NCBI GenBank assembly: GCA_028687935.1
Contig: JAQTZE010000005.1
Span: forward strand, 1-64,000
Reading direction: 5' to 3'
DNA length: 64,000 bases
Origin: Sulfurimonas sp.
GTDB taxonomy: Bacteria; Campylobacterota; Campylobacteria; Campylobacterales; Sulfurimonadaceae
Shown: piece by piece, positions 141-63,686 of the stretch
Layout: each line of letters starts with the position of its first letter
How positions within the stretch are numbered: the first letter of the stretch is position 1
The notes under the pieces: model-generated
The model's database searches: none
What the model was told of the DNA's origin: nothing
Seen by the model: the letters and a program-made list of their open reading frames with translations, nothing else
Made by a program: the position numbers and the translations under genes

Positions 141-1694
141 ATGAAAATCGTCAAAAAAGTACTCAATGAGCTCAAATACAATGTGCTCACACCCTACGTA
201 ACAGTTGAAGCTATCGGCGCACTTTTTGGCTTTGATTTTTTTGGGAAAAGTCTCGTACCACAGAGTTATATGCCTATTCGAAAGAGTATCTTTGAACCTA
301 AAATCGACGAAGAGCTACGCATAGAACGCTATAGTGAAAAAGAGGCTACTCAAAGTATCACCGCTATCCAAAATCAGATTATCCGCTATGTCATAGAAGA
401 GACATTTGGTATCCATCCAGAGACGCTTGAAGATGCAATCATCGATGAGATACGTGAAATAGCGCTGAGCAAAGAGGATATCGTGCAAGAAGATCAAGAT
501 GGTGTAGCAATTGATTCGGTCACAAAACTTGGACTCAAGCACAACCTTTTACAGATAGAAGAGCAGAGACTCATCGAGCTTCTGCGTAAAGAGTACAAGG
601 TCTCAGCTGGACATATGCGCATCCAAAAAGCGAAGATGGCGAAAGTCGGCTTTAGCACAAAAGAACAGCTTTTTTATCTTCAAAGTGCCCTGATGACGGT
701 TGGTCTGCGAGAGTTTTCAGATATCATCGTCTTGTGTGCCCATGCAAGCCAATCAGAAAACAACCCCTATGAATCTTCACTTGATTGTGGTGCTTGTGGA
801 GGGAGTAGTTCTCTTATAAACGCAAAGGTTTTAGCCTATATAGCAAACAAACCAAGCATACGCCAAGAGCTCAAAAAACAGGGTATTAGCATTCCAGAAC
901 AGAGCTATTTTGTAGCAGCCCTGCACAACACGACCAGTGATGCGCTTACATTTTATGATGCGAACATTCCAGATTCGCATCAAGAGGCGATGCATCAGCT
1001 CAAAAGCGATCTACACCTTGCAAGCATGGCAACAGCGCAAGAGCGTATGGAAACACTCCCTCTCTCAAGCACGAGTAATAAAAAAACAGCCTTCTCTTTT
1101 GCAAAAAGAAATACCCTCGATTGGTCACAGCCAAGACCTGAATGGGGTCTTTCTAAAAACCACTCTTTCTTCATAGGCAAACGCGAGAACTCTAAAAATA
1201 TGCACCTTGATGGCAGAACATTTTTGCACTCTTATGACTACAAAGGTGATGCAAAAGGGGCAATTCTGGGAGTCATCCTCTCAGGTCCGCTTGTTGTTGG
1301 TGAGTGGATCAATCTTGAGTACTTCTTCTCTACAATCGATAACAGTACTTTTGGAAGCCAGAGCAAGGTCTACCACAATGTCGTAGGAAAACTCGGTGTC
1401 ATCTCGGGAAATATGAGTGATTTGCGCACAGGTCTTCCTGCGCAAACGGTCAATCTTGAAGATAAAGCCTATCATGAACCTTTGCGTTTGATTACAATGA
1501 TAGAAGCACCCTTTGCAAGGTACAAACATATTTTGGACAAGATCCATAAGATAAACGAACTCGTCTATAATGAGTGGATAAGAACTATCCTAGTTGACGA
1601 AGAAGAGGCTGCGTTTTACTACTACGAGGGCAATACAAAATCTTGGGAGAAGATCCCATTTGAAACATTTATGAAGGAGCAACAAAGCGCATGA
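141..1694 (+). CDS. dabA: DabA (DUF2309), C-terminal part; inorganic carbon transporter subunit
   Basis: DabA with its membrane partner DabB forms an energy-coupled CO2-hydrating/bicarbonate-accumulating complex (DAB). The family signature is clear: His201 and Cys216-Gly-Ala-Cys219-Gly-Gly are spaced like the zinc ligands His524 and Cys539 of the Halothiobacillus protein. The other two conserved ligands (a Cys-x-Asp pair) should lie upstream and are absent. The product is 517 residues, whereas full DabA proteins are roughly 800 or more, and the upstream sequence is closed in frame by a stop at 102-104. This is therefore a 5'-truncated or split gene, possibly a pseudogene or an assembly/frameshift product. 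The start at 141 is only the first in-frame ATG and is not convincing. A PII-like gene overlaps its stop, as is usual in DAB operons. Confidence 0.75.
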   Translation: MKIVKKVLNELKYNVLTPYVTVEAIGALFGFDFFGKSLVPQSYMPIRKSIFEPKIDEELRIERYSEKEATQSITAIQNQIIRYVIEETFGIHPETLEDAIIDEIREIALSKEDIVQEDQDGVAIDSVTKLGLKHNLLQIEEQRLIELLRKEYKVSAGHMRIQKAKMAKVGFSTKEQLFYLQSALMTVGLREFSDIIVLCAHASQSENNPYESSLDCGACGGSSSLINAKVLAYIANKPSIRQELKKQGISIPEQSYFVAALHNTTSDALTFYDANIPDSHQEAMHQLKSDLHLASMATAQERMETLPLSSTSNKKTAFSFAKRNTLDWSQPRPEWGLSKNHSFFIGKRENSKNMHLDGRTFLHSYDYKGDAKGAILGVILSGPLVVGEWINLEYFFSTIDNSTFGSQSKVYHNVVGKLGVISGNMSDLRTGLPAQTVNLEDKAYHEPLRLITMIEAPFARYKHILDKIHKINELVYNEWIRTILVDEEEAAFYYYEGNTKSWEKIPFETFMKEQQSA

Positions 1695-1990
1695 GAAATC
1701 TAAAAAAAATGAAAAAAATAGAGATGATTATCGAGGGAGAATTTCTCGCCCATCTTACACGTCTGCTAGAAAAGATAGAGATCAATAACTATACGATATT
1801 TCGTAACCTTGAAGGCCGTGGAAAAGCAGGTTATCATGAGGGACAACTCCTCTTTAATGATGAAGATGCCCTTGTCATGATTATGACGGTCGTTGATGAA
1901 GCAAAAGCGCAAACCATCACCGAAGGCTTAGCACTCTTTTTTGAAAAACACTCTGGAGTTATGTTTATTAGTGACACGCTGATGCTCTAG
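1691..1990 (+). CDS. PII-like regulatory protein of the DAB operon
   Basis: This 99-residue protein has the length and alternating alpha/beta pattern of PII-like regulators. PII-like genes are known companions of DabA/DabB operons in chemolithoautotrophs and are presumed to gate inorganic carbon uptake in response to small ligands. The ATG at 1691 overlaps the preceding stop (ATGA), with an AGGAG-like site about 11 nt upstream inside dabA. A second Met at residue 7 is an alternative start. The classical PII T-loop uridylylation tyrosine is not evident, so it is PII-like rather than GlnB/GlnK. The assignment rests on size, pattern and neighbourhood. Confidence 0.6.
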   Translation: MRNLKKMKKIEMIIEGEFLAHLTRLLEKIEINNYTIFRNLEGRGKAGYHEGQLLFNDEDALVMIMTVVDEAKAQTITEGLALFFEKHSGVMFISDTLML

Positions 1991-1996
1991 AAGCCT

Positions 1997-62801: not shown

Positions 62802-62805
62802 ATCT

Positions 62806-63114
62806 CTATCCTCTCATCGTTGACATTGTATCAAGGTCGATAGTTCCATGACGCTTGTGCCATACAATTAACAATCCAAGACCTACAGCTACCTCTGAAG
62901 CAGCGATTGCGATCACAAAAAACGCAAACATTTGTCCAGTTAAGTCACCATAGTAGTGTGAAATCGCAGCAAAAGCGATATTTACAGAATTAAGTAAAAT
63001 CTCCGTTGCAAAAAATAGCAAAAGAAGGTTTTTTCTACGCATTACACCAATCAAACCTATTGCAAAAAGAATAGTCGAGAGTACAAGGTAGTGATTTAAG
63101 CCAATTTCCATCAT
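62806..63114 (-). CDS. nuoK: NADH-quinone oxidoreductase subunit K
   Basis: This 102-residue three-helix complex I subunit has the conserved glutamates in FATEILLNSVNIAF and AASEVAVGLGLLIVW. Its start shares one base with the nuoJ stop. Confidence 0.97.
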   Translation of the reverse strand: MMEIGLNHYLVLSTILFAIGLIGVMRRKNLLLLFFATEILLNSVNIAFAAISHYYGDLTGQMFAFFVIAIAASEVAVGLGLLIVWHKRHGTIDLDTMSTMRG

Positions 63115-63686
63115 TAAAGCACCTTTTTCATTTGTTTGTTTTTGATCTCTTCAATCTCGTTATCATCTAAAAGAGTAAGAGATAAATCCATATCTTTTCC
63201 TGCTAATACAATACCCGCGATCATTGCTACAAGTAACATTACTGCAGCTACTTCAAATGGAACTAGATACTTCGTAAAAAGAACCAATCCAACCTCTTGT
63301 GTATTACCAGCACCTTCAACCATAGGGTAAAGTGCTGTAATATTTTCAGAAACAAGTGGTGCTGAGAAGATTGCTACAACTAAAATTGCACTCACAACCG
63401 ATAATCCAACAACAATATACTTGTTGCCGTTTTTCTCTTTTACATCTCTTGTTGTATCAAAAAACATCATACCAAAAGCATACAGAGCCATAACAGCTCC
63501 CGAGTAAACTACGATCTGCACCGCACCTAAAAAGTCAGCACCTAGAATAAAGAAAAATGCCGATATAAAAATCATTCCTGCTGCGAGTGATGTCAATGCA
63601 TAGAGTGCCTGTGAAGTAGTCACGGCTATGAAAAACATTGCGATTGTTAAAAACGCAAACAGATAAAAAGCTATAGCTTCAAACAT
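63114..63686 (-). CDS. nuoJ: NADH-quinone oxidoreductase subunit J
   Basis: This 190-residue complex I membrane subunit has about five helices and the conserved VVYSGAVMALYAFGMMFF stretch with the pi-bulge helix. It is followed without a gap by nuoK and preceded by nuoI 11 bp upstream. Confidence 0.95.
   Translation of the reverse strand: MFEAIAFYLFAFLTIAMFFIAVTTSQALYALTSLAAGMIFISAFFFILGADFLGAVQIVVYSGAVMALYAFGMMFFDTTRDVKEKNGNKYIVVGLSVVSAILVVAIFSAPLVSENITALYPMVEGAGNTQEVGLVLFTKYLVPFEVAAVMLLVAMIAGIVLAGKDMDLSLTLLDDNEIEEIKNKQMKKVL

Follow-up and report, generated by a model that had tools for sequence, protein, structure and literature searches.

The 64,000-nucleotide stretch analysed here (Sulfurimonas sp., assembly GCA_028687935.1, contig JAQTZE010000005.1, positions 1 to 64,000; hereafter the window) is strewn with the heptamer AAACGCA, and the question it raises is what such an abundant short word is for. 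The original prediction, made from the letters alone, had put some 118 copies over the whole window where about ten were to be expected at roughly 39% guanine plus cytosine (G+C). The count proved to be 121, from a first copy at 818 to a last one at 63651-63657, for a measured G+C content of 39.5% and a zero-order expectation of 8.3. As argued below, the word, with the consensus HAAACGCAR, is probably a DNA-uptake sequence, in one of several dialects of Sulfurimonas, a conclusion drawn from sequence comparisons.

Within the window, a second-order Markov model derived from the window itself predicts 15.0 copies, and the reversed word, used as a control, occurs 25 times. As for the sister words, which had been estimated at 10-15 copies each, the figure stands for AAACGCT (12) and was too low for AAACGCG (19) and AAACGCC (16). 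The 21 one-letter neighbours of AAACGCA are present in 0 to 19 copies each, save AAAAGCA (38) and AAACTCA (39). A maximal-order Markov test on the window alone did not flag the heptamer, this test being blind to it because the motif fills its own sub-words.

The excess extends to the whole genome (G000; 2,581,018 bases in 42 contigs), where 4758 copies (2407 + 2351 on the two strands) give a density of 1.84 copies per kb, the reversed word totalling 740 (383 + 357). In an unmasked sample of 920,534 bases (36% of the genome), 1788 copies were observed, where an order-2 model trained on sequence with the motif masked predicts 174. An unmasked order-3 model applied to 715,456 bases, of which about 11 kb were masked, gave 273 expected copies vs. 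1360 observed. The comparison with Markov models suggested in the original prediction thus places the word far beyond expectation at both orders.

Concerning its placement, AAACGCA reaches 1.98 copies per kb in coding DNA and 1.34 per kb (88 copies) in intergenic DNA, defined as lying outside open reading frame (ORF) calls of at least 300 bases, the corresponding ranges for six control words being 0.10-0.29 and 0.09-0.20 per kb; the enrichment over controls is therefore similar between and inside genes. The copies occupy all three frames, as had been claimed together with the use of non-coding gaps, although frame use is uneven. A mutation bias, or a preference for certain codons or amino acids, would find support in the favoured frame ..A AAC GCA (Asn-Ala; 629 of the 988 same-strand coding copies) and in the preference for the coding strand over the other gene strand (988 vs. 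702). When codons were shuffled inside each of 848 ORFs, protein and codon usage being kept, the 30 shuffles gave a mean of 282 copies (standard deviation 12; highest 314), vs. 1697 observed. The four controls ACGCAAA, AAACGCG, AAACGCT and AAACGCC yielded 246 vs. 175, 235 vs. 137, 207 vs. 210 and 188 vs. 111, respectively (observed vs. mean), and other frequent words also exceeded their means (CAAAGAG, 751 vs. 336; GAAGATG, 529 vs. 300). Neither low-order Markov models nor codon choice explain the excess of AAACGCA, as had been anticipated for codon and amino-acid preference, and codon choice alone is refuted by the shuffling. Given also the similar enrichment between genes and the lack of enrichment in 82 of 100 genomes of the genus (at 3 times the control and 150 copies), an origin in mutation, codon or amino-acid bias is hardly credible.

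The flanks of the 1788 sampled copies extend the word: G precedes only 7% of them, A or G follows 87%, and a mild preference for C comes after this purine. Both orientations are common, as predicted, in the window (68/53) as well as genome-wide (2407/2351). When 20 kb blocks were divided into their G-rich and C-rich strands, 803 copies fell on the former and 801 on the latter (50.1% on the G-rich strand; 801 vs. 797 with a non-overlapping counter), so that the skew check proposed at the outset found none. Other frequent words in these blocks are skewed, with 67% (GAAGATG), 65% (GAAGAG) and 57% (AAAGAG) of their copies on the G-rich strand. The AAAGAG-type words (CAAAGAG, TAAAGAG, AAAGAGG) are themselves in excess on either strand at several loci of Sulfurimonas and Sulfuricurvum (L006, L007, L021, L062 and others), with a mild skew in G000 (56-59% on the G-rich strand); they are possibly a second genome-wide word, Chi-like or other.

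This symmetry bears on the idea that AAACGCA itself is a Chi-like hotspot, recognised by an enzyme of the RecBCD/AddAB type when double-strand breaks are repaired. The word is short, very frequent, non-palindromic and depleted in a genomic island (see below), and Chi words do vary among bacterial groups; however, a Chi site acts in a single orientation and shows leading-strand skew, whereas AAACGCA has no orientation bias, and the several words found within one genus would demand repeated changes in enzyme specificity. We regard this explanation as quite unlikely, in line with the initial argument that mixed orientation speaks against Chi and segregation sites, neither leading-strand skew nor replichore polarity being found.

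Spacing is near random in the sampled genome, with a slight surplus of close neighbours (146 vs. 116 expected at 7-39 bases), and density is broadly even across the sampled stretches, deserts excepted. Neighbours within 40 bases comprise 36 converging, 34 diverging and 83 tandem pairs; close inverted pairs being in no strong excess, a hairpin or paired-word role was rejected.

The main desert is an island on contig C26 (110000-136000; L187 from 10033, and L164), with two copies in 26 kb where about 50 would be expected at genome density. Its products include two phage-type integrases, an HTH_3 protein and another with a DnaB N-terminal domain, as well as the R, M and S subunits of a type I restriction-modification system. 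No copy is present in a 3.2 kb contig that carries a Rep_3 initiator, so that depletion in foreign DNA was seen in two cases, the 26 kb island and this small replicon contig. Another contig of the assembly, C1 (L117; 3.3 kb, 34% G+C), also has zero copies; it carries genes named by eye as galE-like and hslU-like, and may be a contaminant.

A role in chromosome organisation, the word being bound by an abundant nucleoid-associated or segregation protein, would agree with the dense, near-random spacing over the sampled genome. Segregation-guiding (KOPS-like) words are strand-polarised, whereas AAACGCA is symmetric (803 vs. 801), and neither its near-absence from the island nor its replacement by other words in sister lineages would be expected of a structural site. 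This role is accordingly as doubtful as that of a Chi-like site.

Relatives of the window were fetched with NuoM, encoded by the second of three ORFs that are presumably nuoN, nuoM and nuoL; they are Sulfurimonas and kin. The three nearest (L001-L003; 97, 96 and 95% NuoM identity) are all dense in AAACGCA, and among 119 genomes (G000, 71 of the same genus and 47 from other families of the order) the enrichment is confined to the genus. In other relatives, alternative words were found, first in loci or stretches of mostly 10-40 kb and then by counts in whole genomes, and these words are likewise strand-symmetric. Examples of whole-genome counts vs. control are 948 vs. 39 for TGCGTGAG in G022, 1764 vs. 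100 for YTACATGT in G139 (counts of this word include its palindrome, seen from both strands) and 693 vs. 13 for TGGCGTTT in G051. Among cultured strains, Sulfurimonas indica NW8N has TGCGTGAG in its nuo locus. The putative dialects would comprise AAACGCAR, AAACGCCA, TGGCATGTGG, GCATCTR, YTACATGT and TGCGTGAG, with GGCATTG, weaker than the others, in Sulfuricurvum.

A census was taken over the whole genomes of a 100-genome sample of the genus, with a cut-off of at least 3 times the control and at least 150 copies. For GGCATSTR, which takes in the TGGCATGTGG word and part of the GCATCTR word, at least 5 times and at least 300 copies were required, because it runs at about 2-3 times the control across much of the genus. 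AAACGCAR passes in 18 of the 100 genomes, TGGCGTTT (that is, AAACGCCA) in 9, YTACATGT in 20, TGCGTGAG in 5 and GGCATSTR in 18. At least one word is present in 63 genomes, and overlaps occur only between AAACGCAR and AAACGCCA (seven genomes), which we read as one relaxed dialect. GCATCTR was scored in stretches rather than whole genomes, and stands at 54 vs. 9.7 in 40 kb of G133, a genome that fails the GGCATSTR cut. A second survey, of 110 genomes or loci and seven words (z of 5 with at least four copies), assigned exactly one word to 55 entries, none to 53 and more than one to two: G009 (AAACGCAR and AAACGCCA) and G000, which has the same pair and a slight excess of GCATCTR (385 vs. 298 in 920 kb). 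Locally frequent words of single lineages were also noticed, namely GCGCGCTG in L075 and the palindrome TGCCGGCA in L077 and L079.

On a quick tree built from nuoL, nuoM and nuoN (81 rows, 34 with a dialect label), the window groups with its three nearest relatives in a supported clade whose members all have AAACGCA, and the word recurs in L034 and L057, near TGCGTGAG lineages. The six labels of the 34 labelled rows need seven changes, the minimum possible being five; with unlabelled rows taken as a state, 20 changes are needed. The TGGCATGTGG label is not clustered (four rows, four changes), two of its rows being weak with four copies.

The words can be aligned with each other as cTGCGTTT, TGGCGTTT, TGGCATGT, gGCATCTR, cTACATGT, TTGCGTGA and cGGCATTG, where a C and a T are invariant and purines surround them. 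In a post hoc test of this GCRT-like core, 400 random word sets with equal G+C content were aligned, and 2 of them scored as well as the observed words. As for individual sites, those of the window are intact in 12 of 20, 8 of 17 and 4 of 16 cases in three same-dialect relatives (same-letter CGC controls: 16 of 31, 8 of 25 and 7 of 25), and in 0 of 18, 0 of 19 and 2 of 28 cases in three TGGCATGTGG relatives (controls: 1 of 27, 0 of 25 and 0 of 40). The comparison of motif positions among relatives, which the original prediction had advised, was thus uninformative: sites turn over like control words, and site conservation was dropped as evidence. Single sites not being specially protected, a fixed local function is argued against, and nothing more, while the word remains dense in the window and in L001-L003 despite this turnover.

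These data also bear on a methylation-linked word (HIP1-like or of a restriction-modification system), that is, a methyltransferase target kept for a regulatory or protective role. YTACATGT does hold a palindrome, a type I system does sit in the G000 island, and Campylobacter jejuni, of the same phylum, is reported to identify self DNA through methylated RATTY in the first step of uptake (PMC8468864). That same island, however, is nearly without the word, and the core shared by the words of different lineages would be unexpected from independent methyltransferases. Restriction targets, moreover, generally tend toward avoidance rather than a 10-fold gathering. Methylation as a separate explanation is therefore unlikely. 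In view of the C. jejuni case, a methylated recognition word is possible; if uptake were to depend on methylation, it would be a variant of the same function and not a rival to it.

A DNA-uptake sequence would need a machinery, and ComEC, pilins, a secretin and ATPases were all found in G000. There are nine matches of the N-methyl pilin type, eight of them above the family cut-off, four type II secretion system (T2SS)/type IV pilus ATPases above cut-off, and a T2SS locus with GspC, D, E, F and G-like products. In the genus sample, ComEC is present in 93 of 100 genomes and in all 61 high-quality ones. Since it is near universal, including in genomes without any word, it does not separate carriers from non-carriers and is uninformative as a predictor.

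Among the minor pilins, G000 has a FimT/GspH-like one (C32:149-832), marked by an invariant GRP and by a pair of conserved cysteines that lie in the C-terminal half. Its structural model (mean predicted local distance difference test score of 82.8) has a GspH/FimU fold, with FimU (Z 10.8, 2.3 A over 117) and EpsH (Z 10.6, 2.5 A over 113) as matches. Sequence and simpler structural searches gave less: the protein has no Pfam match at E 0.01, plain Foldseek with the model returned nothing at E 0.001, and a FimT-like profile run against PDB sequences returned N-terminal pilin matches and chance hits. In a 57-genome set, the rows of D1, the dialect of the window, and of D2 (nine of ten genomes grouped) need two changes on the FimT-like tree vs. 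four on the ComEC tree. ComEC identity between D1 and D2 lineages is ordinary, and, seen from G000, their FimT-like copies rank high for their ComEC identity. The partial Mantel r is -0.19, with 3 of 5000 label shuffles as low, shuffles which ignore kinship. This pilin thus appears partly to track the AAACGC dialects, and is a lead as candidate receptor. In many drafts the contig breaks off no more than a few hundred bases from the gene of this pilin (L178/L219 and others), a sign that a repeated element such as a ribosomal RNA operon may flank it.

Other receptor candidates were set aside. As a general receptor, the FimT-like pilin was rejected on its distribution and tree (see below). The T2SS GspH-like pseudopilin, present in 55 of 100 genus genomes in what reads as an ordinary T2SS locus, is missing from the strong YTACATGT carriers G006, G061, G128 and G139, and also from the TGCGTGAG carriers G007, G013, G022 and G027. 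Pilin genes beside priA (L116:14525-15490, and the priA loci of 29 genus genomes) lie some kilobases from comEC in conserved order; the outer one is hypervariable after an opening stretch of 30-40 residues, even when the closely related G000 and G016 are compared. The pair in G000 is similar to the one in G045, a genome with another word, and the priA-adjacent pilins were rejected as well.

The over-representation of the word, its symmetry, its lack in the island and small replicon contig and the clustering of the dialects, along with ComEC, the pilins and the T2SS locus, are observed here; from them we infer preferential uptake, the identity of a receptor and the direction of causation. On the cell surface, the competence apparatus would present a minor pilin (or a pseudopilin) that binds the word in double-stranded extracellular DNA. 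The bound DNA would be drawn in and travel through ComEC, and resident alleles would then be exchanged for incoming ones by homologous recombination. Because word-bearing fragments would enter more often, word-bearing alleles would pile up on both strands, in genes and gaps alike, and recently arrived foreign DNA would be without the word. If the preference of the receptor shifted, the genome would slowly be rewritten to the new word, hence lineage-specific, mutually exclusive and related dialects. Symmetry, density, indifference to coding, near-absence from the island and related, exclusive words of lineages together make up the signature of an uptake sequence. This had been held the best fit from the outset, and the excess over Markov and shuffled expectations, the lack of skew, the replacement words of sister lineages and the near-absence from the island all support it.

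Several observations weigh against this explanation. At the cut-offs used, 37 of the 100 genus genomes are without any tested word, though ComEC is near universal. Uptake words usually form frequent inverted pairs, though this is not a defining trait, and the sampled genome has no marked class of close inverted AAACGCA pairs, only a mild excess; the palindrome inside YTACATGT is likewise unlike the uptake words known to us. One-mismatch versions of AAACGCA show no overall excess (3478 vs. 3430 expected), although AAACGCC and AAACGCG stand out at about 2.7-fold. The G+C content of the C26 island is lower than that of the genome, and part of the shortage in the deserts is compositional, since they are poorer in G+C. 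The core test was made after the words had been seen, and an automatic alignment put GCATCTR in another register. Site conservation carries no information, same-letter CGC control words being preserved at a similar rate. On the receptor side, a search at E 1e-6 did not recover the FimT-like pilin from 8 of the 20 census genomes with AAACGCAR or AAACGCCA (G003, G010, G014, G054, G057, G060, G132 and G144, two of which are 99% complete), a ninth carrier, G023, has a weak match, and all dialects together need 12 changes on its tree vs. eight on the ComEC tree. The T2SS GspH-like gene is absent from several dialect carriers, and the priA-adjacent pilins do not track dialect (p = 0.085 in a numerical test on the inner pilin).

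A wider proposal, to which we give somewhat short of an even chance, is that at least six related uptake words, built on a GCRT-like core, are in use in Sulfurimonas and its sister genus, as a system that arose independently in Campylobacterota. The words would split the genus into sexual-isolation groups, a FimT/GspH-type pilin would read the word in part of the AAACGC lineages and possibly be exchanged with the dialect, and recognition of the word and of a methyl mark might combine, as in Campylobacter.

The features of the window are collected in Table 1. Searches of the window for RNA families and transfer RNAs found none.

Table 1. Position and strand of the features described in the 64-kb window.
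Feature	Position	Strand	Remarks
AAACGCA copies	818..63657	both strands	121 = 68 (+) + 53 (-); mean spacing 524 bases; HAAACGCAR; dialect D1
Close converging pair AAACGCA ... TGCGTTT	11624..11644	.	from the position listing of copies
Two overlapping AAACGCA copies, starts 58636 and 58642	58636..58648	+	from the position listing
Three ORFs, presumably nuoN, nuoM, nuoL	57814..62801	-	names putative

If AAACGCA is indeed an uptake word, it would represent a third, independent system of this kind, in free-living sulfur-oxidising Campylobacterota. Its several dialects and many word-less lineages would offer a natural comparative experiment on the origin of uptake words, in which changes of receptor specificity and the limits set by dialects on gene flow could be studied. 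Natural transformability would be predicted for environmental bacteria known mainly from metagenomes, and absence of the word would serve as a marker of recent foreign DNA in such genomes. No report of uptake words in Campylobacterota was found among the literature matches listed, which cover subscription journals thinly, so that an earlier description is possible; matches listed for the bare word AAACGCA were all unrelated.

To our knowledge, uptake sequences all come from Pasteurellaceae and Neisseriaceae. At 1.84 copies per kb, the Sulfurimonas word is denser than the DNA uptake sequence (DUS) of Neisseriaceae, which in N. meningitidis reaches about 0.9 per kb. The DUS is described in eight dialects that follow phylogeny around a common CTG core, with ComP as receptor (PMC3630211). 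The likeness lies in a short over-represented word, in several dialects following phylogeny and in a short core, CTG there and GCRT-like here (PMC3630211). The phylum is another one, however, the word is unrelated and without clear inverted pairing, and uptake and receptor are here predicted from sequence; at least five Sulfurimonas words, moreover, fall within one GTDB genus, unlike the DUS dialects. In Pasteurellaceae, two dialects of the uptake signal sequence (USS) are named (Apl- and Hin-USS), and the predicted receptor is the minor pilin ComN/PpdA, so that both an abundant dialect word and a candidate receptor of broadly the same minor-pilin kind recur in Sulfurimonas (PMC12616744), although the word is unrelated and the link to a receptor is weak here. 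Within the phylum, a methyl mark on RATTY is reported to decide on self-DNA at the first uptake step in C. jejuni, a motif-based discrimination similar to the one that AAACGCA would provide (PMC8468864). Finally, the modelled GspH/FimU fold of the C32:149-832 pilin, with its two conserved cysteines and invariant GRP, brings it close to the Legionella FimT family. Legionella FimT, a DNA-binding minor pilin, differs in being described with a C-terminal GRxR motif, and the text of that report drawn on here claims no word specificity for it (PMC8897410).

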